Positions 47,651-64,000 of a stretch of DNA of 64,000 nucleotides are shown here, one piece after another; within the stretch, counting starts at the first letter, position 1, and every line of letters begins with the position of its first letter. The DNA is taken from positions 496,001-560,000 of the forward strand of contig NZ_CP095491.1 of assembly GCF_023028105.1 (NCBI RefSeq). The letters run 5' to 3'. This DNA comes from Halosolutus gelatinilyticus. GTDB lineage: Archaea > Halobacteriota > Halobacteria > Halobacteriales > Natrialbaceae. The position numbers and the translations under genes are program-made. The notes under the pieces are model-generated. The model searched no databases. It was not told the DNA's origin and worked only from the letters and a program-made list of their open reading frames with translations.

Positions 47651-48538
47651 TTACCGCCCGACGACGGCCCGTACGGCGAACCAGAGGTTTTCCTTCCGCT
47701 CCATCACGCGCCGATAGAAGTACGACTTCCAGCGACCACCGTAGGGGACGTACTGCCAGACCTCGTACTCGTCGGCGAGCTCCTCCTGGGCGTCTTCACG
47801 AACGCCCATCAGCATCTGGACCTCGAACGGCGTCCCGTACTTCTGGTGGAGTTCGATCGCCCGGTCGATCATCGCGGGATCGTGACTGCCGACCGCGATG
47901 CCGCCGTCGAAGTGCTCGAACGCGTACTCCAGCAGCGCCTCGTACTCGCGGTCGACCGCCGCCTTGTCTTTGTAGGCGATTTCGGCCGGTTCGTCGTAGG
48001 CTCCCTTGACGAACCGGACCTTGCCGGGAACGTCGGCGAGCCGTTCGACGTCGTCCCGGGTGCGTTTGAGGTTCGCCTGGACGCAGACGCCGACGCCAGC
48101 GCCGGACCCGCCGTCCGACGTGGATCGCGTTCCGCCGGAACGCTCACCGCCGCCGTGTTTCCGGGCGAGGGCTTCGAACGCGTCGAGCGTCGCGTCGGTC
48201 GTCGTGTGATCTTCCATGTCGATCCAGACGAAGACGTCCTCCTCGACCGCCGAATCGACGATCGCGGTGACCTCCTCGCGAAACACGTCCTCGCCGAGGT
48301 CGAGTCCCAGTTGCGAGGGCTTGACCGAGATGCACGCGTCGAGGCCCGAGGAGGCGATGTCGGCGGCGAGCGATCGGTACGTCGCGGCGTCGGCGTCGAC
48401 GGGATCGCGATCGTTGTAGTGTTCGCCCAGCAGGTTGACGATCGCCTTCAGGTTGCGATCGTTCAACTGCCGTACGTGGTCGAGCGCCTCGGCCGGCGTC
48501 TCTCCGGCGACGAACCGGTTTGCGATCGGTGGGATCAT
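47651..48538 (-). CDS. Proline dehydrogenase
   Basis: The protein of 295 residues is the FAD-dependent TIM-barrel enzyme that oxidises proline to pyrroline-5-carboxylate. Landmarks are SVKPSQLGLDLG, VWIDMEDH, VRFVKGAYDEPAEIAYK, GSHDPAMID and YVPYGGRWKSYFYRR with the substrate-binding Arg pair near the end. I start at MIPPIANRF (48538). A Gly/Ser/Arg-rich insertion (about residues 130-150) interrupts the barrel between EALARKHGG and VCVQANLKR. The P5C dehydrogenase gene is not in the window. Confidence 0.92.
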   Translation of the reverse strand: MIPPIANRFVAGETPAEALDHVRQLNDRNLKAIVNLLGEHYNDRDPVDADAATYRSLAADIASSGLDACISVKPSQLGLDLGEDVFREEVTAIVDSAVEEDVFVWIDMEDHTTTDATLDAFEALARKHGGGERSGGTRSTSDGGSGAGVGVCVQANLKRTRDDVERLADVPGKVRFVKGAYDEPAEIAYKDKAAVDREYEALLEYAFEHFDGGIAVGSHDPAMIDRAIELHQKYGTPFEVQMLMGVREDAQEELADEYEVWQYVPYGGRWKSYFYRRVMERKENLWFAVRAVVGR

Positions 48539-48633
48539 ACAGCGATTTTGTAAGGCGACCACTAAGGCAGTTAGTGATTGTGCTCGCCGCTCACATCGGT
48601 TCCGACGGCCGGCGGCGCGGACAAACCACCGCC

Positions 48634-49622: not shown

Positions 49623-51005
49623 ATGACGGCAGGCCCACCGATCGAAGACCTACACTACGAGGAAGCGCCGAAGGTCGACAGCGTTCCCGGGCCGCGGTCC
49701 CGGGAACTGCTCGAAAAACAGCGCGAGATCGACAGCAGCGCCGTCGCCTACCCCGACGACATCCCCGTCGCCTTCGAGGAGGGCAGCGGCGCGACCGTTC
49801 GCGACGTCGACGGCAACGCGTACATCGACATGTTCGCGGGGATCGGCGTGCTCAACGTCGGCCACGCGAACCCCTACGTGCTCGAGGCCGTCCACGAGCA
49901 GGCGGACAAACTGGTGCACACGGTCGACTTCCCGACCGACGCGCGCCTCGAGTTGATCGAAAAACTCGACGAGATCGCCCCCGACGGACTTCGAGGATCC
50001 AACAAGGTCGTCTTCGGCGGTCCCACCGGCAGCGACGCGATCGAGGCGTCGATCAAGCTCGCCAAGTACAACACCGGCGGCGACGGCCTCATCGCGTTCC
50101 GCGGGTCCTACCACGGCGCGACGACCGGCGCGATGAGCGTCACCTCCAACACGAAGTTCAAGGGCCACTACACGCCACTGCTCTCGGACGTCGTGCACGC
50201 GCCCTACCCGTACCCGGTCCACATGGGAAAAGATCCGCAGGAAGCGGTCGACCACGCCCTCGAGGAGGTGCAGGCGATCGTCGAGGATCCGTACGGCGGC
50301 CTCGCCAACCCCGCCGGCATCTTCGTCGAACCGATCCAGGGCGAGGGCGGCGTCGTGACCCCTCCGGAGGGGTTCCTGCAGGGGCTTCGCGACATCGCCG
50401 ACGACAACGACATCCCGCTCGTCTTCGACGAGATCCAGAGCGGATTCGGCCGCACCGGCGAGTGGTGGGCCAGCGACTGGGCGGGCGTGACGCCCGACGC
50501 GATGACCTCCGCCAAAGCGCTCGGCGGCGTCGGATTTCCGCTGTCGGCGACGATCTACCACGAGGATCTCGACACGTGGGGAGCGGGCGACCACGCCGGC
50601 ACCTACCGCGGTCACGTGGTCGCGATGCGGGCCGGGACTCGCGCGATCGAGTACATCCAGGAACGCGACCTGCTGGCCCACGCCCGCGAACTCGGCGAGT
50701 ACATTCAGGACCGGCTGAACGAAGCGGCCGAGGAGACCGATCGGCTCGTCGACGTGCGCGGACGGGGCCTGTTCATCGGCGCCGAGTTCGTCGACGCGGA
50801 CGGCGCCCCGGACGGCGACCTCGTCGACGCCATCCAGCAGTACTGTTTCGAGCGCGGCGTCCTCGTCTGGACCGCTGGCCGGCACGGTAGCATCCTTCGA
50901 CTCCTGCCGCCGCTCGTGCTCACGCACGACCTCGCCGAGACGGCCCTGGACGTCATCGTAGACGCGATCGAACACGCGACCGAAGAGGCCGCACAAACCG
51001 CCTGA
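49623..51005 (+). CDS. Class III aminotransferase
   Basis: The protein of 460 residues is a fold-type I PLP aminotransferase of the acetylornithine/4-aminobutyrate/diaminobutyrate group. It has [19 protein letters not shown] for PLP phosphate binding, [16 protein letters not shown] and the Schiff-base Lys298 in TSAKALGG. The ATG at 49623 is preferred because a TATA box is 26 bases before it. It should transfer an omega- or side-chain amino group to 2-oxoglutarate or pyruvate; 2,4-diaminobutyrate-type substrates are possible. RidA follows after 24 bases, which fits an imine by-product. Confidence 0.88.
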
Positions 51006-51029: not shown

Positions 51030-51416
51030 ATGACCGACGCACATCCCGTCGAAACCGACGACGCACCGAACTCCGACAATCCGTACTCGCAGGGTATCCG
51101 CACCGGCGACACGCTCTACGTCTCCGGTTACGGGCCGGTCGATCCGGCGACGGGCGAGGCCGTCGACGGCGATATTCGAGACCAGACCGATCGCGTGCTC
51201 GACAACGTCGCCGCGGTCGTCGACGAGGCCGGCGGCGACGGACTCGACGATGTCGTGAAGGTCACCGTTTACCTCACCGATCTCGAGGATTACGAGCACG
51301 TCAACGAGGCCTACGGCGCGCGGTTCGGCGAGGACCCGCCGGCCAGAGTCTGCGTGGAGGTCTCGCGGCTTCCCGAGGACGTCCGCGTCGAGATGGACGC
51401 GATCGCCGTCTGCTGA
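51030..51416 (+). CDS. ridA: RidA-family deaminase
   Basis: The 128-residue protein hydrolyses reactive enamine/imine intermediates released by PLP enzymes. Landmarks are NPYSQGIRTGDTLYVSGYGP and the Arg in PPARVCVEVSRLPEDVRVEMDAIA. Most active members have that Arg near residue 107. It is 24 bases after the aminotransferase, so probably co-transcribed. Confidence 0.9.
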   Translation: MTDAHPVETDDAPNSDNPYSQGIRTGDTLYVSGYGPVDPATGEAVDGDIRDQTDRVLDNVAAVVDEAGGDGLDDVVKVTVYLTDLEDYEHVNEAYGARFGEDPPARVCVEVSRLPEDVRVEMDAIAVC

Positions 51417-51540: not shown

Positions 51541-52824
51541 GTGATGGCATTCGACGGACGCGAACGGCTGCGCGACCTCCGGCGGGAGTTCCACCGATAC
51601 CCCGAACCCGGCTGGCGGGAGTACCGGACCACGGGCCGGATCGTCGACGAACTCGAGCGGATCGGGGTCGACGAGATCGCGGTCGGCCGCGAGGCGCTCG
51701 CCTCCGATGCGCGGATGGCCGTCCCCGACGCCGAGGAACTCGAGCCCTGGTTCGAACGCGCACGCGGGGCCGGCGTCCGATCGGACGTGCTCGAGCGAAC
51801 CGCCGACGGTCACACGGGGGTCGTCGCCGTCGTCGAGCAGGGCGAGGGCCCCTCGGTCGGGCTGCGCGTCGACATGGACGGGATCTCGTTGCGGGAGTCC
51901 GACGAACCCGGCCACCGACCGGCGGACGAGGGCTTTCGCTCCGAGCACGACGGCTACATGCACGCCTGCGGCCACGACGCGCACGTCGCGATCGGGCTGG
52001 GCGCGGTCGAGGCGATCAAGGCGAGCGAGTTTGCGGGGACGTTCACGGTGTTTTTCCAGCCGGCCGAGGAGATCTCCGGCGGCGGCAAGGCGATGGCCGA
52101 GGGCGGCTACCTCGACGGCGTCGAGTACCTGCTCGCGGTCCACATCGGACTCAACAATCCGACGGGGACCGTCATCGCCGGCGTCGAGAAACCGCTCGCC
52201 ATGGCGCACCTGACGGTGACGTTCGAGGGGGCGAGCGCGCACGCGGGCAAGGCGCCGAACGAAGGGGCGAACGCGATGCAGGCGATGGCGACCGCGGTGC
52301 AGAACGCGTACGCGATCCCGCGCCACGCCGACGGGATGACCCGGGTGAACTTCGGTCGGGTCGACGGCGGGACCGCGAGCAACGTCATCGCCGAGGAGAT
52401 CACGCTCGAAGGCGAGGTCCGCGGGGAGACGACGGCGCTCATGGAGTACGTGCGGACGGAACTCGAGCGCGTACTGTACGCCGCCGCGGAGATGCACGAC
52501 TGCGACGTCACGCCCCGGATGATCAGCGAATCGCCGCGGGTCGATAGCGACCCCGAACTCCGCGACCTCGTGAGCTCCGTCGCGAAACGGGTCCCCGGCG
52601 TCGACACCGTGCTGCCGAGCGCGGAGTTCGGCGTCAGCGAAGACGTGACGTACCTGATGGATCGCGTCCAGAGCGAGGGCGGGCTGGCCTCGTACCTGCT
52701 CGTCGGCACCGACCACCCGACGAATCACCACACGCCGACGTTCGACGTAGACGAAGCGAGCCTGGGGATCGGCGTCTCGGTCCTCGCGGACGCCGCCGTC
52801 GAACTCTCCCGTCGACACCCGTAA
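51541..52824 (+). CDS. AbgA-like M20-family amidohydrolase, copy 1
   Basis: The 427-residue metallo-hydrolase (GTG start; ATG at 51544 is the alternative) has the metal-site motif MHACGHDAH near residue 140, FFQPAEE near 172 and SNVIAEE with the dimerisation domain in between. The N-terminal part (HPEPGWREYRTT, then REALASDARMAVPD and WFERARGAG) matches E. coli AbgA of aminobenzoyl-glutamate hydrolase more than plain hippurate hydrolases. It should cleave an amide bond of an acylated amino acid. It is a paralogue of 58747-60027. Confidence 0.88.
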   Translation: MMAFDGRERLRDLRREFHRYPEPGWREYRTTGRIVDELERIGVDEIAVGREALASDARMAVPDAEELEPWFERARGAGVRSDVLERTADGHTGVVAVVEQGEGPSVGLRVDMDGISLRESDEPGHRPADEGFRSEHDGYMHACGHDAHVAIGLGAVEAIKASEFAGTFTVFFQPAEEISGGGKAMAEGGYLDGVEYLLAVHIGLNNPTGTVIAGVEKPLAMAHLTVTFEGASAHAGKAPNEGANAMQAMATAVQNAYAIPRHADGMTRVNFGRVDGGTASNVIAEEITLEGEVRGETTALMEYVRTELERVLYAAAEMHDCDVTPRMISESPRVDSDPELRDLVSSVAKRVPGVDTVLPSAEFGVSEDVTYLMDRVQSEGGLASYLLVGTDHPTNHHTPTFDVDEASLGIGVSVLADAAVELSRRHP

Positions 52825-52914: not shown

Positions 52915-53562
52915 ATGAGTCAGGACGACGTGCCGGAGTCGCTCCGGACGGCAGCGGACTCCGATCGGCCCCGCGGGATCCTCACACCGTCCGATCGCGA
53001 CTTCCTGCTCGGTCGGAAGACGGACTACACCGATCACTCCAAAAAACAGAAACGAAACCGCATTCGGCGCCGCGTGCGGAACGCGATACTCGATTTCAGC
53101 ATCCTCTTCGAATACATGGAAGACCGGGACCGAAAGACGGTCTTCGACCCCGACGACGACGAACGCGACGCGTACACGCAGGGTATCACGGACATGCTCG
53201 CGTTTCTCCACCTCGGGACGATGGGGTACTACACGCCGTTCAAGGACATGCTCTCCGAGGGCGTCGGCAAGGCCGAACAGCGACTCGCCGGCTCGAACTA
53301 CCGGATGGTTAACGTCGAGTTCAACGTCGACCCGGTCGGTCAGATCGACGTCGACGAGGTGATCGAGAAGCTCGAAAACGAGGAGTTCGCCCAGCTGACC
53401 GACGAGGAGCTTCGGGCGTTCGTCCGCCTGTTGACCATGTCCGACGACTTCTCCCCGGAGGCGACGCGCGAGGATATCAAGGATCGCGTCGACGAGTACG
53501 CCCGGAACGTAAACGAGAGCGCCGAATCCCGTGAACAGCGACTCAAGGAGCTGACGAACTGA
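52915..53562 (+). CDS. Conserved-looking soluble protein, unknown function
   Basis: The protein of 215 residues is highly charged. It starts MSQDDVPESLRTAADSDR, has the basic stretch KKQKRNRIRRRVRNAILDF (about 44-62), then a helical domain with a conserved-looking LTDEELRAFVRLLTMSDDF and an acidic coiled-coil-like tail. No transmembrane segment. GTTAATT (52885-52891) is about 27 bases before the ATG, so it is leaderless and separately controlled. I cannot assign a family; nucleic acid binding is possible from the basic patch. Confidence 0.75.
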   Translation: MSQDDVPESLRTAADSDRPRGILTPSDRDFLLGRKTDYTDHSKKQKRNRIRRRVRNAILDFSILFEYMEDRDRKTVFDPDDDERDAYTQGITDMLAFLHLGTMGYYTPFKDMLSEGVGKAEQRLAGSNYRMVNVEFNVDPVGQIDVDEVIEKLENEEFAQLTDEELRAFVRLLTMSDDFSPEATREDIKDRVDEYARNVNESAESREQRLKELTN

Positions 53563-53937: not shown

Positions 53938-54024
53938 ATGCCATTGCACGGCACAGTCCGGCTGAGGCAGAAACAGGGTGGATCAGCTACGGTGCTGTTC
54001 GGAACCGGAGGTGGGACGGAATGA
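53938..54024 (+). CDS. 28-residue leader ORF overlapping the BCCT start
   Basis: The ATG at 53938 lies at the predicted transcription start, so it could be read as a leaderless codon. The frame runs MPLHGTVRLRQKQGG, SATVLFGTGGGTE to a TGA at 54022-54024 that overlaps the BCCT ATG (ATGA at 54021-54024). The peptide is basic with a Gly-rich end and no hydrophobic segment. The BCCT ribosome binding site lies inside it. It could couple translation to the transporter, as leader peptides do. Too short to test by composition alone. Confidence 0.45.
   Translation: MPLHGTVRLRQKQGGSATVLFGTGGGTE
54007..54012 (+). promoter_or_regulatory. Shine-Dalgarno sequence of the BCCT gene
   Basis: GGAGGT eight bases before the ATG at 54021, complementary to the 16S 3' end. 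It lies within the leader ORF, so ribosomes finishing that ORF could start the transporter. Confidence 0.6.
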
Positions 54025-55658
54025 GCGATGCCGAGAAGGGGATGGTCGGCGAATTCTTCGAGGAGATCGATCCGACGGTTTTCTTGTTCGGTGCGTTGCT
54101 TACGGTCGGCGTGATTGCAGCGTTCTTCATCGACCAAGAGTTCGTCTCGAACGGGATTTCGACCGTCCAGACCGAGGTCCTCGCCTATCTGAACTGGGCA
54201 CTACTGGTGATCGTATTCCTGATCGTCATCTTCCTCCTGTTCCTGATCGTCGGGCCGTGGGGCAAGATCAAGATGGGAGACTCGGATCCGGAGTACAGTT
54301 TCCTGTCGTTCTTCGCGATGCTGTACTCCGCCGGGTTCGCAGCCGGTGTCGTGTTCTGGGGACCGACGGAGGCGCTGTTCTACTACGATTCCCCGTCACC
54401 GCTGTTCGGCATCGAGGCCGGGACGAGCGAGGCGGTCCCAATCGCGATCCAGCAGACACTGTTCCACTGGGCGCTGCCACAGCTGGCCGTGTTCACGATC
54501 ATGGGGCTCGCGATCGGATACTTCGCGTACAACTACGAGAACGTCCCGCTCCGCGTCTCTTCGGCGCTGACGCCGATCATCGGCGCCGATAACCTCGACG
54601 GCCCGGTCGCAAAGGTCGTCGACATCCTCGCCGTCTTCGCGACGATCGGTGGCGTGGCGACCTCACTCGGCTTCATCGGGAGCCAGTTCATCGCTGGCCT
54701 TAACTACCAGTGGGGGATCAGCCTGGGGAACGTCGGTATCCTCCTCGTGGTGACGATGATGACGCTCCTCTTTACGATCTCGATGGTGCTCGGGGTCGAC
54801 AAGGGGATCCGCAGATTATCGAACTTCAACATGGTGCTGTTCGTCGTGCTCATGGTTGCGACGTTCTTCCTGGGACCGACGCTGTTCTTGCTCCTGCTCG
54901 GCTCACAGGCTGTGGGCGGAATGATCACCGATTTCGTCTCTATGAGCCTTTACACCGGTGCCGGCGACGAAGGTGGCACGGCGTGGGTCAACACATGGAC
55001 TGTCTTCTATTGGGCGTGGGCGCTCTCGTGGTCACCGTTCGCTGGCCTGTTCATCGCCCGCATCTCCAAGGGTCGGACCGTCCGCGAGGTCGCGTTCACG
55101 GGGATCGTCGCGACCTCTGCGGCGACCATCCCGTGGTTCACGTTTGTCGGCGGCACTGCCCTGATGTACCACCACAATGGCACGGCCGACTTCAGCACCG
55201 TCATCGCCAACAACACACCGGAACTGTCGGGCTTCATCCTCTTCGAGGCGTTCCCCCTTGGAACCGTGTTCATGATCGCCTTCATGGTTCTCGTAACGAC
55301 ATTCTTCGTCACGTCGGCCGACTCCTCGACGCTGGCCGTCTCGATGATGACGACCGGCGGCAAGGCCCGCCCATCGACCATCAACCGGATCTTCTGGGGC
55401 GTCGTCCTCGGCGTGACCGCGGCGATCCTCATGATCATCGGCGGCAACGACGGAACCGGCGCGCTTCAGGACGCCGTCATCATCACCGGCGCACCGTTCG
55501 CCTTCGTCTGCTTCCTCGCGATGCTCTCGCTGATCAAGAACTTCGGCTCGAACTACGGCCGCGTGCTCCTGCAAGATGAAACCGTCCTCGTGGGCTCGAG
55601 CGCGACGACTGAACCCGAATCGCCGCCCGGCGGCCCCGTCGAATCGGACGACGACTGA
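54021..55658 (+). CDS. BCCT-family transporter with atypical substrate box
   Basis: The 545-residue protein has 12 membrane segments and the BCCT signature FYWAWALSWSPFAGLFIARISKG. Where BetP-like transporters have an aromatic box for quaternary amines, this protein keeps one Trp (H149-W150) but has Leu155, Phe158 and Ala334 in place of Trp194, Tyr197 and Trp374 of BetP. The glycine stretch after the third helix reads GFAAG, not GMGIG. So its substrate is probably not betaine. It should act by sodium- or proton-coupled import. The acidic C-terminus is short (SPPGGPVESDDD). It is preceded by the leader ORF and followed by a class III aminotransferase. Confidence 0.85.
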   Translation: MSDAEKGMVGEFFEEIDPTVFLFGALLTVGVIAAFFIDQEFVSNGISTVQTEVLAYLNWALLVIVFLIVIFLLFLIVGPWGKIKMGDSDPEYSFLSFFAMLYSAGFAAGVVFWGPTEALFYYDSPSPLFGIEAGTSEAVPIAIQQTLFHWALPQLAVFTIMGLAIGYFAYNYENVPLRVSSALTPIIGADNLDGPVAKVVDILAVFATIGGVATSLGFIGSQFIAGLNYQWGISLGNVGILLVVTMMTLLFTISMVLGVDKGIRRLSNFNMVLFVVLMVATFFLGPTLFLLLLGSQAVGGMITDFVSMSLYTGAGDEGGTAWVNTWTVFYWAWALSWSPFAGLFIARISKGRTVREVAFTGIVATSAATIPWFTFVGGTALMYHHNGTADFSTVIANNTPELSGFILFEAFPLGTVFMIAFMVLVTTFFVTSADSSTLAVSMMTTGGKARPSTINRIFWGVVLGVTAAILMIIGGNDGTGALQDAVIITGAPFAFVCFLAMLSLIKNFGSNYGRVLLQDETVLVGSSATTEPESPPGGPVESDDD

Positions 55659-55788: not shown

Positions 55789-55811
55789 TACGATGTAAAC
55801 ATAAACTGTGT

Positions 55812-57179
55812 ATGGATAGGGACACGGCGGAACCCGACGCGGGCGAGCTTCCGGGTCCGAACGCGCAGCGATGGGTCGACTTCCATCAGGAGTACTCCGC
55901 GCCCAGCGAGTACTCCCACGAGTTCGTCTGGGACGTCACCCGCGAGGCCGACGGCCCGTTCGTCACGGACGTCGACGGCAACGTGTTGCTCGATTTCACC
56001 TGTCACATCGGCGCGGCGCCGCTCGGCTACAACAACGAGAAGATCACGTCGAAACTCCGCGAGTTCGACCTCGTCGAGCCGATGAAGATCGCCGGCCAGG
56101 ACATGTACTTCGGAGCCGGTTCCGACCCCGCCGAGGCCGAGTTTCCGGGCTCGAGCCACCTGATGGAGAGACTCGTCAACGTCTCGAGCCAGTACGGGAT
56201 GGACACGGTCTTCCTTTCGAACTCCGGCGCGGAGGCCGTCGAGAACGCGATGAAGATCGCCCACGACCACCGGGCGCCTGCGAAGTACGGCGTGGCCTTC
56301 GCCGGCAGCTTCCACGGCCGGACCCTGGGGACGCTCTCGATCACGAAGTCCAAGTCGGTCTACACGCGCCACTACCCCGAGATCGGCGGCATCGAAACGA
56401 TCCCGTTTTGCGACTGTCGGGCCCGCGACAGTTCCGGCGACCCCTGCGACTGCGGATTCTTCACCGGATCGAGCTCGCGGCTCCGCGGCACCCTCTCGCC
56501 GGAGGGCGGTCACATTGATCCCGACGAGATCGCCTTCTTGATCCTCGAGCCGATCCAGGGCGTCGGCGGCTACCGCTTCCCGAGCGAGGGGTTCGTACAG
56601 GAGGTCGCTGACGTCACCGACGAGTACGACATTCCGCTGGTCGTCGACGAGATCCAATCCGGCGTCGGTCGCACCGGCGAGATCTGGGCTTCGGATCACT
56701 ACCCGATCGAACCCGACGTCATCGCCAGCGCGAAGGCGCTGCGCGTCGGCGCGACCATCTCCCGATCGGAGGTGTTCCCCAGCGAGAAGAACCGCCTGGG
56801 ATCGACGTTCGGCGGCGGCGATCTGCTGGGTTCGATGATGGGCGCGTTCACGCTGGAGGCGATCGAGGAGCACGACCTGCTCGACAACGCTACCCGACGC
56901 GGCGAGCAGGCGAAAGAACTGCTCCGGGACGGCGCGCCGTCCCACGTCGAGGACGTCCGCGGCACGGGACTGATGCTCGCGGTCGAGTTCGACACGCCGG
57001 AGCGACGCACCGCCGTGGTCCAGGAGGCGCTGCGACGCGGTCTGCTCACGCTCGGCTGCGGGAAGAAGACTGTCCGGCTGCTCCCGCCGCTGGACTCGAC
57101 CGAGCGCGAGATCGAACTCGGCGTCTCGATCTTCCGCGAGGCGATCGAAGCGGCCGGAACGACCGCGAAGGTCGCCTAG
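55812..57179 (+). CDS. Class III aminotransferase with CxC..CxC insertion
   Basis: The protein of 455 residues has FLSNSGAEAVENAMKIA (PLP phosphate site), VVDEIQSGVGRTGEIW and the Schiff-base Lys308 in ASAKALRVG. It resembles 4-aminobutyrate or lysine 6-aminotransferases of the same fold. Between the PLP phosphate site and the cofactor Asp lies an inserted segment with Cys200, Cys202, Cys212 and Cys214 (FCDCRA, PCDCGF), a possible metal site. It lies 153 bases after the BCCT gene on the same strand. It belongs to the same class as the aminotransferase at 49623 but differs widely. Confidence 0.88.
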   Translation: MDRDTAEPDAGELPGPNAQRWVDFHQEYSAPSEYSHEFVWDVTREADGPFVTDVDGNVLLDFTCHIGAAPLGYNNEKITSKLREFDLVEPMKIAGQDMYFGAGSDPAEAEFPGSSHLMERLVNVSSQYGMDTVFLSNSGAEAVENAMKIAHDHRAPAKYGVAFAGSFHGRTLGTLSITKSKSVYTRHYPEIGGIETIPFCDCRARDSSGDPCDCGFFTGSSSRLRGTLSPEGGHIDPDEIAFLILEPIQGVGGYRFPSEGFVQEVADVTDEYDIPLVVDEIQSGVGRTGEIWASDHYPIEPDVIASAKALRVGATISRSEVFPSEKNRLGSTFGGGDLLGSMMGAFTLEAIEEHDLLDNATRRGEQAKELLRDGAPSHVEDVRGTGLMLAVEFDTPERRTAVVQEALRRGLLTLGCGKKTVRLLPPLDSTEREIELGVSIFREAIEAAGTTAKVA

Positions 57180-57505: not shown

Positions 57506-58750
57506 CTACGAGACGTCCGGAGTCCGCTCGACGATCGTCACGCCCTGCATCTCCGAGAGCGCCGCGAGCACCTCGCGCAGGTGATCCGGTCCGCTGCCTT
57601 CGAGGCCGATCGTCACGGGCGTTCGGTTCGGGTGATCGACCGCGGTCCGATCGGCGCGTTCCAGCCGGTCGAGTTCGGCGCCGCGGTCTTCGACGGTCTC
57701 CATCACGGCCCCGAGCGTCGTCGGCCAGCCCTCGATCGCCAGGCGAACGTCGACGTAGCGCCCGAGTTCGGCGAGCCCGGTGCGGGTCAGGTCGGCGTGT
57801 TCGGTGAGATTGACGTTCCCGCCGGAGACGAGGACGGCGACGTGCTCGCCCGCGACGTCGAGTTCATGCGACAGCAGCGCGGCCAGCGGCGCCGCGCCGG
57901 CGCTCTCGGCGACGGTCTTCGCCCGCTCGGCCAGCAGTGCCACCGCGGTCGCGATCTCGCGATCGTCGACGGCCACGACGTCGTCGACGACCTCGCGGGC
58001 GACCGCGAAGGTGGTCGAAAGCATGCGGGTGTCCGCGATCCCCTCCGCGACTGTGTCGACGTCCGACAGTTCGCGGATCTCGCCGGCCTCAAGCGACGGT
58101 TTGGCGTGGGCGGCGCCCTCGGGCTGGACGCCGACGATGCGAACGTCCCGATCGTGGGCGTTCAGAACCGTACCGACGCCCGAGATGAGGCCGCCGCCGC
58201 CGATCGCGACGAGGACGGTGTCCAGTTCGGGGAACTGCTCCAGCAGTTCGAACCCGATCGTCCCCTGGCCGGCGATGATCGCCTCGTCGTCGAAGGGGTG
58301 GACGAACGTTCGGCCCGACACCTCGGCGCGTTCGAGGGCGTACTCGTAGGAGCGCTCGTAAATGTCCCCCTCGACGACGACCTCGGCGCCGTAGCCCCGC
58401 GTCGCGTCGATCTTCGCCGCGGGGGTCACCTCCGGCACGACGATCGTGGTGTCCACGTCGAGCAGGTCGCCGGCGAGCGCGACGCCCTGGGCGTGGTTTC
58501 CGGCGCTCGAGGCGATGACGCCGGTTTCGCGTTCCTCGGGCGAAAGCTGCGCCATCTTGTTGTACGCGCCTCGGATCTTGAACGAGCCCGTCCGTTGGAC
58601 GTTCTCGAGTTTGAGGCCGACCGAGGCCGCGCCGCTCATCTCCGCGAACGTTCGCGACGTGTCGAGCGGCGTGCGGTGGACGACATCGTCGATCCGATCG
58701 CGGGCCCGCTCGACGTCCTCGACGGTGACCGGCGATCGCGGCCCGGTCAT
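57506..58750 (-). CDS. Threonine/serine dehydratase with C-terminal ACT domain
   Basis: The protein of 414 residues deaminates threonine to 2-oxobutyrate with PLP. The PLP Lys is in GSFKIRGAYNK, the phosphate loop in IGGGGLISG and SSAGNHAQG is conserved. The final 80 residues (GRYVDVRLAIEGWPTTLG to the end) form an ACT regulatory domain, so it may respond to an amino acid effector. Its ATG at 58750 overlaps the stop of the upstream amidohydrolase (ATGA), which ties it to that gene. Catabolic or biosynthetic use cannot be told. Confidence 0.92.
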   Translation of the reverse strand: MTGPRSPVTVEDVERARDRIDDVVHRTPLDTSRTFAEMSGAASVGLKLENVQRTGSFKIRGAYNKMAQLSPEERETGVIASSAGNHAQGVALAGDLLDVDTTIVVPEVTPAAKIDATRGYGAEVVVEGDIYERSYEYALERAEVSGRTFVHPFDDEAIIAGQGTIGFELLEQFPELDTVLVAIGGGGLISGVGTVLNAHDRDVRIVGVQPEGAAHAKPSLEAGEIRELSDVDTVAEGIADTRMLSTTFAVAREVVDDVVAVDDREIATAVALLAERAKTVAESAGAAPLAALLSHELDVAGEHVAVLVSGGNVNLTEHADLTRTGLAELGRYVDVRLAIEGWPTTLGAVMETVEDRGAELDRLERADRTAVDHPNRTPVTIGLEGSGPDHLREVLAALSEMQGVTIVERTPDVS

Positions 58751-60027
58751 GGCCGACGCTCCGTGAGCGCGAGGATCGACTCCGTGAGCACCGAGACGCC
58801 GATCTCCAGGCTCCGTTCGTCGACATCGAACGTCGGCGTGTGGTGGCTCGTCGGGTGGTCGGTGCCGACGATCATGTACGACGCGAGCCCCCCGTTCTCC
58901 TGGACCCGTTCCATCAGGAAGGTGGCGTCCTCGCTGGCGCCGAAGTCCGCGCTCGGCAGCACGGTGTCGACGCCCGCGACGCCGCGAGCAACCTCGGCGA
59001 CGAGGCGCTGCAGTTCGGGATCGCTGTCGGCCCGCGGCGACTCGCTCTCGATTTCGACCTCCGCGCGGCAGCCGTGGAGCTCCGCGGCGTTGCGGATGAC
59101 GCGGCGGAGTCGCGACTTCGCGTACTCCATGAGTTCCGTCGTCTCGCCGCGGGCCTCCGCCTTGAGGGTGGCGTGCTCGGCGATGACGTTGCTCGTCGTT
59201 CCCGCCTCGACCCGACCGATGTTCACCCGGGTCATCCCGTCGGCGTGACGCGGGATGCCGTACGCGTTCTCGATCGCCGTTCCGAGCGCGTGGATCGCGT
59301 TGTCGCCCTCGTTGGGCGCCTTCCCCGCGTGCGCGGAGGTCCCCTCGATCGTCGCGTCGACGTGGCACATCGCGAGCGGCTTCTCGATGCCGGCGACGAC
59401 CTCGCCCGTGGGGTGGTCGAGGCCGACGTGGACCGCCAGCAGGTAGTCGAGATCGGCGGTGTAGTCGCTGTTCGCCATCGGACAACCGCCGCCGCTGGTC
59501 TCCTCGGCGGGCTGGAAGAAGACGACAAGTCGACCCGAAAAGTCGCTCTCCGAGATCGCTTCGAGAACGGCCAGTCCCCAGGTCATGTGGGCGTCGTGAC
59601 CGCAGGCGTGCATCGTGCCGTCGATCTCCGAGCGGAACTCCTCGGCGGCCGGCGCGTGGTCCGGATCGGTCGACTCCTCGATGAACAGGCCGTCGATGTC
59701 GACCCGCAGTCCGATCGCGGGCCCCTCGCCGCGGTCGAGGATGGCGACTGCGCCCGTGTTTCCGCCCGCCATCCGATCGAGCAGCGCCTCGTCGACGCCC
59801 CGCGTTCGGGCGCGCTCGAACCAGGGGTCCAGTTCTGCGTCGTCGGGAACGGCCATCCGATCGGCGGGGTCGTAGGCGTCGGGACCGACGGCGAGATCGT
59901 CGACGTCGAGCGCGCGGAGTTCTTCGACGAGGCGCGCGGTGGTGGCGAATTCGCACCACGCGGGCTCCGGATGGCGGTGCAGGTCGCGTCGGACGGCGAC
60001 GAGCCGATCGCGAATCGATTCGCTCAT
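58747..60027 (-). CDS. AbgA-like M20-family amidohydrolase, copy 2
   Basis: The 426-residue protein has MHACGHDAHM, FFQPAEE and SNVIAEH, with the AbgA-like N-terminal stretch (HPEPAWCEFATTARLVEEL, then DPADRMAVPDD and WFERARTRG). It is a clear paralogue of 51541-52824 across its full length (for example GLASYMIVGTDHPTSHHTPT versus GLASYLLVGTDHPTNHHTPT). It should release an amino acid from an amide. The overlap with threonine dehydratase suggests the product feeds deamination. Minus TATA TATAATTAAG at 60053-60062 gives a very short leader. Confidence 0.88.
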   Translation of the reverse strand: MSESIRDRLVAVRRDLHRHPEPAWCEFATTARLVEELRALDVDDLAVGPDAYDPADRMAVPDDAELDPWFERARTRGVDEALLDRMAGGNTGAVAILDRGEGPAIGLRVDIDGLFIEESTDPDHAPAAEEFRSEIDGTMHACGHDAHMTWGLAVLEAISESDFSGRLVVFFQPAEETSGGGCPMANSDYTADLDYLLAVHVGLDHPTGEVVAGIEKPLAMCHVDATIEGTSAHAGKAPNEGDNAIHALGTAIENAYGIPRHADGMTRVNIGRVEAGTTSNVIAEHATLKAEARGETTELMEYAKSRLRRVIRNAAELHGCRAEVEIESESPRADSDPELQRLVAEVARGVAGVDTVLPSADFGASEDATFLMERVQENGGLASYMIVGTDHPTSHHTPTFDVDERSLEIGVSVLTESILALTERRP

Positions 60028-60155: not shown

Positions 60156-61127
60156 ATGAGCGAGAATCCAGATATCGTCGTTCTCCGAGAGGGGACGGAG
60201 GGACTGTCGATGGAATCGTACGTCGAAACGCTGCGCGAGCGACTGCCCGACTCCGACGTGGCGCTGGCGCGAACGCCGAAGGAGGAGCGCGAACTCGTCC
60301 CGAAGGCGCAAGTGGTGACCGGGATCACGATCGAGGAGGACCTCCTCGAACGAGCCGATCGGCTCGAGTTGTTCGCGTGCACGTTCGCGGGCACGGACCA
60401 CGTGCCGATGGACGCGCTCGACGAGCACGGCGTCGCCGTCACGAACGCGGGCGGTATCCACGCGCCGGGCATCGCCGAGCAGGCGATCGGGAACGTGCTC
60501 GTGTTCGCCCGGCGGCTCCACGAGGGGTGGCGCCGCAAGCGAAACGGCGAGTGGCGTCACTTCCAATCGTACGAGTTCACGGACAGCACCGTGACGATCG
60601 TCGGCCTCGGTTCGATCGGGCGGGAGGTCGTCAAGCGACTCCAGGGGTTCGAGGTCGAGACGATCGGCATCCGCTACACGCCCGAGAAGGGCGGTCCGAC
60701 CGACGAGGTGCTCGGCTTCGACGAGGACGATATTCACGAGGCCTTCGCCCGCAGCGACTACGTCGTCGTCGCCTGCCCGCTCAACGACCTGACCCGCGGG
60801 CTCGTCAGCGAGGCGGAACTGGCGACGCTCCCGCCGAACGCGGTCGTCGTCAACGCCGCCCGCGGCGGGATCGTCGACACCGACGCGCTCGTCTCGGCGC
60901 TGCAGACCGAGGGGATCCGCGGCGCCGCGCTCGACGTGACCGATCCCGAACCGCTTCCGAACGACCACCCGCTCTGGGATCTCGAGAACTGCCTCATCAC
61001 GCCCCACACGGGCGGCCACACGCCGAAACACTGGGATCGTCTCGCCGACATCGTCGCGCACAACGTCGCGGCGCTCGACGAGGGCGGCGAGCTGGAGAAC
61101 GCGGTTCTCGTCCCCGGGTCGAGCTGA
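60156..61127 (+). CDS. D-2-hydroxyacid dehydrogenase
   Basis: The 323-residue NAD(P)-dependent enzyme interconverts 2-oxo acids and D-2-hydroxy acids. The Rossmann motif is GLGSIG near residue 152. The catalytic Arg is in NAARGGIVD, the Glu in VTDPEPLP and the His in ITPHTGGHTP. Haloferax D2-HDH is of this family. The neighbouring oxidase gene starts six bases after its stop codon, so they share an operon and may interconvert the same substrate. The divergent amidohydrolase shares its control region. Confidence 0.9.
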   Translation: MSENPDIVVLREGTEGLSMESYVETLRERLPDSDVALARTPKEERELVPKAQVVTGITIEEDLLERADRLELFACTFAGTDHVPMDALDEHGVAVTNAGGIHAPGIAEQAIGNVLVFARRLHEGWRRKRNGEWRHFQSYEFTDSTVTIVGLGSIGREVVKRLQGFEVETIGIRYTPEKGGPTDEVLGFDEDDIHEAFARSDYVVVACPLNDLTRGLVSEAELATLPPNAVVVNAARGGIVDTDALVSALQTEGIRGAALDVTDPEPLPNDHPLWDLENCLITPHTGGHTPKHWDRLADIVAHNVAALDEGGELENAVLVPGSS

Positions 61128-61133
61128 CGACCC

Positions 61134-64000
61134 ATGGCGAGCAAGGATTCACGACCGTCCGGGGCCGATCCCGAACCCGTCGACGATCGCGCGACCGGTT
61201 CGCGGACCGACGATCCGGCCGACGATCGACCGATCGACTCGGGGACTGACGATCCGGCAGACGATCCGCGGACCGAGTACGAGTACGTCGGCGGCGACGA
61301 GAATCGACCCTCGCTGGTGGCGGCGCTGGACGCGCGTATCGACGGCGAGGTCCGCTTCGACGAGTACAGCCGACAGCTGTATGCGACCGACGCGAGCGCC
61401 TACGAGGTGACGCCCGTCGGCGTGGTCTTCCCGGCCTCGACCGAGGGCGTCGCCGCCGTCGTCGAATACTGCGCCGATCGAGGAGTCCCGGTCCTCCCGC
61501 GGGGCGGCGGGACGAGCCTCGCCGGCCAGGCCGTCAACGAGGCCGTCGTCTTGGACCTCACCGTCCACATGGGCGACCTCCTCGACGTCGCCCCCGACGA
61601 TCGGCTGGCGACCGTCCAGGCGGGCGCCGTCCTGGCCGAGCTCAACGCCGCGCTCGAACCCCACGACCTGAAGTTCGCGCCCGATCCCGCCGCCGGGAAC
61701 CGCAGCACGATCGGCGGCGCGATCGGCAACAACTCGACCGGGGCGCACTCCCTGCAGTACGGCAAGACCGACGCCTACGTCGAGGAGTGCGAAGTCGTAC
61801 TGGCGGACGGCACTGTGACGACGTTCGGTGAAGTGACGGTCGCCGAACTCCGCGATCGGGCCGATCCCGACGGCGACCTTCGCGGGCGGATCCACGAGGC
61901 GCTGCGTCGGGTCGTCGACGAGGAGGCCGAGGCGATCGCCGCGGTCTTCCCGCAGTTGAAACGCAACGTCTCGGGGTACAACCTCGATCGACTCGTCGCG
62001 GAGGCGTACGGAGAGCCGGAGGCCTTCGACGAGAACACCGAAGCGTCGGTCTCGATCGACGGCGAACCCGACCCCGACGCGACCGTCAACCTCGCTCGCG
62101 TCTTCGCTGGCAGCGAGGGAACCCTCGGCGTGGTCACCGAGGCGACCGTCTCGCTCGAACCGATCCCCGAGACGAAAGCCGTTGCGTTGCTGACCTACCG
62201 CGACCTGCTCGACGCGATGGCCGACGTCGACGCGATCGTCAGGAACCACGATCCAGCCGCGATCGAGGCGATCGACGACGTGCTGCTCGGCCTCGCCCGC
62301 GACACCGAGGAGTTCGCCGCCGTCGCCGATCGGCTCCCGGACGGAACCGAGACCGCGCTGCTCGTCGAGTTCTACGCCGAGGACGACGCCGACGGTCGGG
62401 TGAAGGTCCGGGAGTTGCTCGCCGATCGCCTCCCCGGTTCGGCGGGTCCGTCCCCCTCGGCTGAAAACGGGGCGATCGACGAAAGCGACGATCCCGTCCG
62501 CGCGTTCGATGCCCGCAAAGCGCACGATCCCGAGGGGCGAGCCGAACTCTGGAAGCTCCGCAAGAGCGCGGCGCCGATCCTGCTCTCGCGAACCTCGGAC
62601 GCGAAGCACATCTCGTTCATCGAGGACACGGCCGTCCCGACGGAGAACCTCGCCGACTACGTCGCGGATTTCCAGAACGTGCTCGAAACGCACGACACGG
62701 TCGCCAGCTTCTACGCCCACGCCGGCCCGGGTTGTATGCACATGCGGCCGCTGGTCGACACCAAGAGCCCGGCCGGGCTGAACCAGTTCGAGGCGATCGC
62801 CGACGCCGTGACGGACCTCGTCGTCCGGTACGGCGGCTCGGTCTCCGGCGAACACGGCGACGGCCGCGCCCGAACTCAGTGGAACCGGAAGCTCTACGGC
62901 GACGAGGTCTGGTCGCTGTTTCGCGACCTGAAGACGGCGTTCGATCCGGACTGGCTCCTGAACCCCGGAAACGTCTGCGGCGACCACGACCTGACCGAGC
63001 ACCTCCGATTCTCTCCCGGCTACGAGTTCGACGCCGGCTTCGATCCCGCGCTGAACTGGGAGAACGAAAACGAGATGCAGGGCATGGTCGAACTCTGTCA
63101 CGGCTGCGCCGGCTGTCGCGGCGCCCAGGAGACGACCGGAGGGGTGATGTGTCCGACCTACCGCGCGGCGGAAGAAGAGGGGCTGAGCACCCGCGGTCGG
63201 GCGAACATGCTCCGCCAGGCCATGAGCGGCGATCTCGACGCCGACGCGACGGACGCCGAGTTCGTGGCCGAGGTGGTCGACCTCTGTGTCGGCTGTAAGG
63301 GCTGCGCCCGGGACTGTCCGAGCGAGGTCGACATGGCCAAGCTCAAAGCGGAAGTCGAGCACGCCCGCCACGAGGCCCACGGCGCGACGCTGCGCGATCG
63401 GCTCTTCGCGAACGTCGACCGGGTCAACGCCCTCGGCTCGAAACTCGCGCCGCTTTCGAACTGGGCCGCGTCGCTGCCGGGCGCGAACGTGATCGCCGAG
63501 AAGACGCTGGGGATCGCCCGCGACCGATCGCTCCCGCCCTTCGCCGCCGAGAGTTTCGAGGACTGGTTCGCAAAGCGCGGCTCCTGCGTCGGGCTCGCGG
63601 AGGCCGATCGGAAGGTCCTGCTGTTTCCCGACACCTACACGAACTACAACCACCCCCGCGCCGGGAAGGCGGCCGTGCAGGTCCTCGAAACGGCGGGCGT
63701 CCACGTCCGGATTCCCGAGGGCGTCACGTCGACGGGCCGGCCGGCCTTCTCGAAGGGGTTCCTCGAAACCGCTCGCGAGCGAGCGCGGACGAACGTCGAC
63801 GCCCTTCGCCCCTTCGTTGAGGACGGCTGGGAGGTCGTCCTGATCGAACCCTCCGATGCGGTGATGCTTCAGTCCGATTATCGAGATTTACTCTCGGGCG
63901 ACGACATCGATCGCGTGGCGGCTAATACGTACGGCGTGATGGAGTATCTCGATACGTTCGACCTGGTCGCTACCCTCCCGCTGGCCGAGCCGACGGAGCG
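61134..64000 (+). CDS. FAD/Fe-S oxidase (D-lactate dehydrogenase / glycolate oxidase type), partial
   Basis: The frame is open from the ATG at 61134 to the right edge (955 codons), so the C-terminus is missing. It starts with an acidic repeat tail (TDDPADD twice within residues 25-47). An FAD-binding PCMH domain follows (VPVLPRGGGTSLAGQAVN near residue 120), then an FAD-linked oxidase C-terminal domain. Two Cys motifs come next: C655-HG-C658-AG-C661 and C718-VG-C721-KG-C724-ARDC, probable [4Fe-4S] sites. Such fusions oxidise D-lactate, D-2-hydroxyglutarate or glycolate and feed electrons to the chain. Partner: the adjacent D-2-hydroxyacid dehydrogenase. Confidence 0.88.
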   Translation, partial: MASKDSRPSGADPEPVDDRATGSRTDDPADDRPIDSGTDDPADDPRTEYEYVGGDENRPSLVAALDARIDGEVRFDEYSRQLYATDASAYEVTPVGVVFPASTEGVAAVVEYCADRGVPVLPRGGGTSLAGQAVNEAVVLDLTVHMGDLLDVAPDDRLATVQAGAVLAELNAALEPHDLKFAPDPAAGNRSTIGGAIGNNSTGAHSLQYGKTDAYVEECEVVLADGTVTTFGEVTVAELRDRADPDGDLRGRIHEALRRVVDEEAEAIAAVFPQLKRNVSGYNLDRLVAEAYGEPEAFDENTEASVSIDGEPDPDATVNLARVFAGSEGTLGVVTEATVSLEPIPETKAVALLTYRDLLDAMADVDAIVRNHDPAAIEAIDDVLLGLARDTEEFAAVADRLPDGTETALLVEFYAEDDADGRVKVRELLADRLPGSAGPSPSAENGAIDESDDPVRAFDARKAHDPEGRAELWKLRKSAAPILLSRTSDAKHISFIEDTAVPTENLADYVADFQNVLETHDTVASFYAHAGPGCMHMRPLVDTKSPAGLNQFEAIADAVTDLVVRYGGSVSGEHGDGRARTQWNRKLYGDEVWSLFRDLKTAFDPDWLLNPGNVCGDHDLTEHLRFSPGYEFDAGFDPALNWENENEMQGMVELCHGCAGCRGAQETTGGVMCPTYRAAEEEGLSTRGRANMLRQAMSGDLDADATDAEFVAEVVDLCVGCKGCARDCPSEVDMAKLKAEVEHARHEAHGATLRDRLFANVDRVNALGSKLAPLSNWAASLPGANVIAEKTLGIARDRSLPPFAAESFEDWFAKRGSCVGLAEADRKVLLFPDTYTNYNHPRAGKAAVQVLETAGVHVRIPEGVTSTGRPAFSKGFLETARERARTNVDALRPFVEDGWEVVLIEPSDAVMLQSDYRDLLSGDDIDRVAANTYGVMEYLDTFDLVATLPLAEPTE

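Follow-up and report, generated by a model that had tools for sequence, protein, structure and literature searches.

Genes of the betaine/choline/carnitine transporter (BCCT) family often carry a default annotation as betaine carriers. The family includes the Na+/glycine betaine symporter BetP of Corynebacterium glutamicum, members adapted to other solutes, such as TmaT (trimethylamine) and DddT (dimethylsulfoniopropionate), and ectoine-transporting members, namely EctT, EctM, EctP and LcoP (PMC5924519). The carrier described here, a BCCT of 545 amino acids (aa) from the haloarchaeon Halosolutus gelatinilyticus, is encoded at 54021..55658 on the forward strand of a stretch of 64,000 nucleotides (contig NZ_CP095491.1, positions 496,001 to 560,000), referred to as the window. 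Three residues of the aromatic box that holds the trimethylammonium group in BetP are replaced in this protein, which is probably a cation-coupled symporter importing ectoine and/or 5-hydroxyectoine for catabolism. It belongs to the same family as EctT, EctM, EctP and LcoP and is predicted to take the same solute; however, their transport is described as osmoprotectant import, whereas that of the carrier is predicted to be catabolic.

The doe pathway of Halomonas serves as the model for the order of DoeA, deacetylase and aminotransferase in ectoine breakdown (PMC3187862). A 2026 study described putative EutD clusters of haloarchaea, termed provisional, in which aminotransferases, an aminopeptidase and a BCCT are also encoded, and Bacillaceae clusters that lack EutE but contain abgB, an amidohydrolase gene (PMC13188858). 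With the doe/eut clusters of Halomonas and Ruegeria and with these putative haloarchaeal ones, the present locus has in common a DoeA/EutD homologue, an aminotransferase, a threonine-dehydratase-like enzyme and an Lrp/AsnC-like regulator, but it has M20 hydrolases, no clear EutE, and a BCCT instead of a tripartite ATP-independent periplasmic (TRAP) or ATP-binding cassette (ABC) importer. The haloarchaeal cluster with a BCCT had thus been noted before, but the binding-site pattern was not found in any previous publication.

Substrate-binding site of the carrier

Residues 20-508 of the carrier match the profile PF02028 with 489 bits (cut-off 27), and its AlphaFold2 model (mean pLDDT 83) aligns with BetP, to which the carrier is 32% identical, with a TM-score of 0.86-0.87 and a Z score of about 52. 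Scores against BetP, TmaT, CaiT and BetT range from Z 41 to 52, compared with about 21 or less for other LeuT-fold proteins, and the predicted fold is the BCCT version of the LeuT fold. The superposition on BetP and CaiT proposed in the preliminary description was made at the level of the fold and aligned residues. The bcct subfamily model TIGR00842 gives 403.8 bits against a cut-off of 407.55, and the glycine betaine equivalog NF047988 gives 419 bits against 650.

The alignment with BetP is unambiguous around the pocket (FHW-ALPQL-AVF in the carrier for FHW-TLHPW-AIY, and WAWALSW for WAWWISW), and in it the site-I box W189/W194/Y197/W374 reads W/L/F/A, with Trp150 retained and Leu155, Phe158 and Ala334 at the other positions. 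The first three residues lie in the stretch W150-A-L-P-Q154-L155-A-V-F158 of transmembrane helix 4 (TM4; 54468..54494, forward strand; BetP W189...P193-W194...Y197), and the fourth in the TM8 stretch W333-A334-L-S-W337 (55017..55031, forward; BetP W373-W374-I-S-W377). In TM3 the GxGxG motif of BetP, G149-MGI-G153, is G105-FAA-G109 (54333..54347, forward), with the outer glycines retained, alanine in the middle, and Phe106 at the Met150 position. These residue calls had been made correctly in the preliminary description; its view of the box as dismantled goes too far, since W189, W373, W377, F156, F380, F384, R387, N309, T246 and T467/S468 of BetP are all kept and Phe106 and Gln154 are new at pocket positions. 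As W373 and W377 remain (W333 and W337), the loss at site II is confined to a single residue out of three. Judged by the aligned residues, the pocket looks rebuilt rather than dismantled.

The Na2 ligands T467/S468, as defined for BetP (PMC6400524), correspond to Thr431-Ser432 (55311..55316, forward) and are invariant across the carrier clade. Among the Na1' ligands, T246 is retained (T208) and T250 is Val212, a position occupied by Val or Ile also in betaine-linked haloarchaeal paralogues and by Val in most other haloarchaeal BCCTs compared. In the case of GFAAG, the motif as a whole is not special: only Phe106 is peculiar, the two alanines being common to the betaine-linked paralogues (GIAAG). 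BetP position 150 is already known to matter for specificity: the Protein Data Bank holds a complex of BetP-M150E with gamma-aminobutyrate (GABA), and in TmaT the GxGxG residue Met105, which corresponds to Phe106, enters the pocket (PMC11708041); TmaT, unlike the carrier, retains the four-residue box. The TmaT study restricts conservation of the W189, Y197, W374 and W377 counterparts to quaternary-ammonium carriers, but holds W194 to be conserved throughout the BCCTs (PMC11708041). The DoeA-type haloarchaeal carriers, the set described below, break the universality claimed for W194, and their kept W189 and W377 run counter to the restriction to quaternary-ammonium carriers.

Conservation and phylogeny

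The DoeA-type haloarchaeal set consists of 65 sequences, the window carrier included, and was compared with a background of 81 BCCTs. Every one of the 56 haloarchaeal sequences in the carrier's subclade has the W/L/F/A state, and chance substitution, drift or decay is rejected on this account, while the nine more distant DoeA-type sequences combine Phe197 with Pro374 (BetP numbering). In the whole set, Phe197 is thus found in 65/65, position 374 is Ala in 56 and Pro in 9, and position 194 is Leu in 56, Trp in 8 and Tyr in 1; Gln193 occurs in 63/65 but in 0/81 background sequences, which have Trp194 (81/81), Tyr197 (75/81) and Trp374 (75/81). The Pro-type and Ala-type groups form two well-supported halves of one clade (support 100/99), and this DoeA-linked clade stands separate from the betaine-linked clade. 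By parsimony, Tyr197 and Trp374 would have been lost first, and Trp194 later in the Ala-type half and again in one further sequence (L241).

Other departures from the box were seen outside this clade. Some actinobacterial and Rhodobacteraceae BCCTs (L043, L047, L052, L078) have a different altered box, with W189 replaced by Leu or Phe, Y197 by Phe and W374 by Thr, and Trp374 alone is changed, to Val in a haloarchaeal sequence (L158) and to Phe in one from Pontibacillus (L024), both of which keep Tyr197.

Linkage of the carrier type to putative ectoine catabolism genes

A DoeA/EutD homologue (65617-66828, reverse strand) lies 1.6 kb beyond the end of the window, within the same conserved gene block as the carrier. 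Its best solved match is the ectoine hydrolase DoeA 6twj (390 bits, 46% identity), the next M24 enzyme scoring 97 bits. Among the 125 genomes of the family, 80 encode DoeA and every one of these has the carrier type, which occurs without DoeA in only two, with assemblies 77% and 67% complete (Fisher value 1.5e-31, descriptive only, as shared ancestry is ignored). When both genes are on the same contig, they are within 30 kb of each other in 71 of 76 pairs. Tyr197 and Trp374 are absent in all 42 BCCTs with DoeA in their fetched flanks, whereas BCCTs flanked by betaine-oxidation genes have Trp374 in 12/12, the organism's own paralogue among them, and Tyr197 in 11/12; the Tyr197 exception and three others of this latter set rest on weak matches of 26-35%.

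The same genome encodes a second BCCT (G000:C1:1514387-1515958; L153), which has an intact box and lies in what appears to be a cluster for glycine-betaine oxidation. Its neighbours, identified from their sequences as a dimethylglycine-dehydrogenase-like protein, a sarcosine-oxidase-like protein and a Rieske oxygenase, are of the kind found beside such paralogues, which form a neighbouring clade about 51% identical to the carrier. They have in common with it the GxAAG frame and the Na2 residues, but differ by their intact W/W/Y/W box, Ala193 and Ile150. The carrier, in which W194, Y197, W374 and M150 of BetP are replaced, is linked to a DoeA gene and not to betaine use. The tie between the DoeA/EutD homologue and the carrier type narrows the predicted solute to ectoine or hydroxyectoine. 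The earlier suggestion that the carrier had moved to a solute degraded by its neighbours has good support from both gene linkage and phylogeny; it is partly upheld and sharpened to a named candidate compound. DoeA also occurs as another, more divergent lineage (53-57% identical), seen in L149, L150 and G006:C2:199633-200793; in the first two of these it is linked to GSAAG-type carriers. The genome of Haloferax volcanii likewise contains a DoeA/EutD homologue.

A parallel lineage in Bacilli

A DoeA-linked BCCT is also found in a Bacilli lineage, in nine genomes with sequences 91-100% identical to L066, and has F150, Q193, W194, F197 and V374. A tree that joins the Bacilli and archaeal carriers in one clade is rejected by the approximately unbiased (AU) test (p-AU 6e-56, with the five trait columns masked), and with it a single origin of the two patterns. 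The chances are about even that a site dedicated to ectoine catabolism arose on two or more occasions, among them one in Halobacteria and one in Bacilli, through the same substitutions (Phe or Leu150, Gln193, Phe197, and a residue without an aromatic side chain at 374). If so, a residue code would separate ectoine eaters from betaine carriers by sequence. Reading the DoeA flanks of another 16 Bacillota genomes revealed no third independent lineage of DoeA-linked BCCTs. The L066 record (G125) is titled Pseudomonas sp. ISL-84; its DoeA-BCCT cluster is near-identical to those in other genomes of its family and its BCCT clusters with Bacillota, and the title therefore looks wrong.

Proposed import and breakdown of ectoine

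The carrier would probably be driven by Na+ through the retained Na2 site. Site I would have been remodelled from a trimethylammonium cage, with Trp194, Tyr197 and Trp374 replaced by Leu, Phe and Ala, Trp189, Trp373 and Trp377 left in place, and Phe106 and Gln154 added, into a pocket whose geometry may accommodate the planar cyclic amidine ring that ectoine has. In the cytoplasm, the linked DoeA/EutD would open the ring to yield N-acetyl-diaminobutyrate, an M20 enzyme replacing EutE would deacetylate this compound, and a class III aminotransferase would move the product toward aspartate. For hydroxyectoine, the dehydratase-like enzyme together with RidA could act on 3-hydroxyaspartate, as its match to PRK07048 suggests.

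Several observations weigh against ectoine as the solute. In Vibrio parahaemolyticus BccT1, which takes up ectoine as predicted here but has an intact box, ectoine uptake requires three of the four box residues (PMC7876524), so that loss of the box alone does not point to ectoine; this mutagenesis speaks most strongly against a simple reading, and it implies that the pocket has been rebuilt. The DoeA/EutD homologue scores 469 bits on TIGR02993, below the curated cut-off of 613, and no clear EutE/DoeB was found in the genome (best match 103.5 bits against 402.7), M20 enzymes being present in the cluster instead. Ectoine catabolism in haloarchaea lacks experimental demonstration so far (PMC13188858), and the association of pattern and pathway is based on just two independent lineages. 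Furthermore, five W/L/F/A carriers (L139, L145, L146, L148, L010) are found without the catabolic block and outside any DoeA cluster; these possibly take up ectoine for another purpose. A search of the genome for ectoine synthase gave no match, but the control was also unmatched and absence is not established.

A site pattern that tracks the pathway would allow annotators to separate ectoine from betaine importers throughout Halobacteria and in part of the Bacilli. The pattern further suggests that roughly one third of the sampled Halobacteria (144 of 391 genomes), which balance salt mainly by inorganic ions, may eat ectoine that salt-tolerant bacteria release. The conflict with BccT1 also makes the recognition of ectoine by BCCT pockets a directly testable question.

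Other possible solutes

The carrier could instead import another cyclic or amino-acid-like solute of the pathway or the gene neighbourhood, such as proline, N-acetyl-diaminobutyrate or diaminobutyrate, which is considered unlikely. The aminotransferases and M20 hydrolases suit acylated amino acids, Vibrio BccT4 has lost two of the box residues and imports proline and choline only (PMC7876524), and a proline dehydrogenase is encoded at 47651-48562, upstream of the block; however, this last gene accompanies the carrier in no more than about half of the Natrialbaceae loci read, and the 20 stretches read from other families did not contain it, whereas the carrier is in every DoeA-bearing genome of the family. 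Moreover, as DoeA acts on the ectoine ring, an intact ring is expected inside the cell.

It is improbable that the carrier still imports betaine or choline through an alternative cage of W150, F106, F158, W333 and W337. W189, W373 and W377 are retained, Phe at the Tyr197 position is a mark of choline carriers (PMC11708041), and only one of the four BccT1 box residues is important for betaine uptake (PMC7876524). Against this, no betaine or choline genes are present among the neighbours examined, the intact-box paralogue of the same genome sits inside the betaine-oxidation cluster, and the lost residues hardly vary elsewhere, Trp194 being present in 81/81 and Trp374 in 75/81 background BCCTs. 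A sensor or non-transporting relic with a decayed pocket, a notion that the loss of conserved ligand residues of the best-known member might invite, is hardly credible, since the altered residues do not vary among 56 sequences and the protein retains its length, its fold and the Na2 residues, which means purifying selection and not decay.

The gene block around the carrier

The block in which the carrier lies begins with a class III aminotransferase (AT1; 49623..51005, forward), a candidate diaminobutyrate (DABA) transaminase by synteny and by its best models, among them diaminobutyrate transaminases; PRK05769 gives 418 bits and PRK06938 414 bits, both below the curated cut-off, which is 671 for the DABA transaminase (DoeD) model scoring 414 bits. 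It is followed on the same strand by a RidA family imine deaminase (51030..51416; TIGR00004, 141 bits, above cut-off) and an M20 amidohydrolase (M20a; 51541..52824; TIGR01891, 267 bits, above cut-off), the candidate N-acetyl-diaminobutyrate deacetylase replacing EutE/DoeB. M20a has the motifs HACGHDAH and QPAEE, and its nearest solved structure, 3io1, is an aminobenzoyl-glutamate utilisation protein, likewise recalling the abgB of the Bacillaceae clusters.

Downstream of the carrier are a second class III aminotransferase (AT2; 55809..57179, forward; PF00202, 264 bits, and synteny) and, on the reverse strand, a threonine-dehydratase-like enzyme dependent on pyridoxal phosphate (57506..58750) and a second M20 amidohydrolase (M20b; 58747..60027; TIGR01891, 264 bits, above cut-off). 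The dehydratase-like enzyme matches TIGR01127 with 405 bits, above cut-off, PRK07048, the threo-3-hydroxyaspartate ammonia-lyase model, with 314, and EutB models with 240-269, below cut-off; a role as EutB or as hydroxyaspartate lyase is possible. Two genes on the forward strand come next, encoding a D-2-hydroxyacid dehydrogenase (60156..61127; PF02826, 188 bits, and synteny) and a FAD/FeS D-2-hydroxyacid dehydrogenase of 1065 aa (61134..64000, continuing to 64331 in the sequence past the window end). An Lrp/AsnC-like regulator (64469-64942, beyond the window; all models below cut-off) adjoins the DoeA/EutD homologue. The order AT1-RidA-M20-HypG-BCCT-AT2-IlvA-M20-DHDH(-DoeA) recurs in Natrialbaceae and, beyond them, in further families of Halobacteria, although some genes are rearranged or missing.

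HypG, a conserved protein of 215 aa linked to the carrier (52915..53562, forward), has no Pfam or NCBIfam match, and its predicted model (pLDDT 51) was too poor for a structure search. Close orthologues (54-93%) are present in nearly all DoeA-positive Natrialbaceae. In DoeA-positive haloarchaea its conservation next to the carrier is strong, and a distant paralogue (about 35%) is found elsewhere in most genomes.
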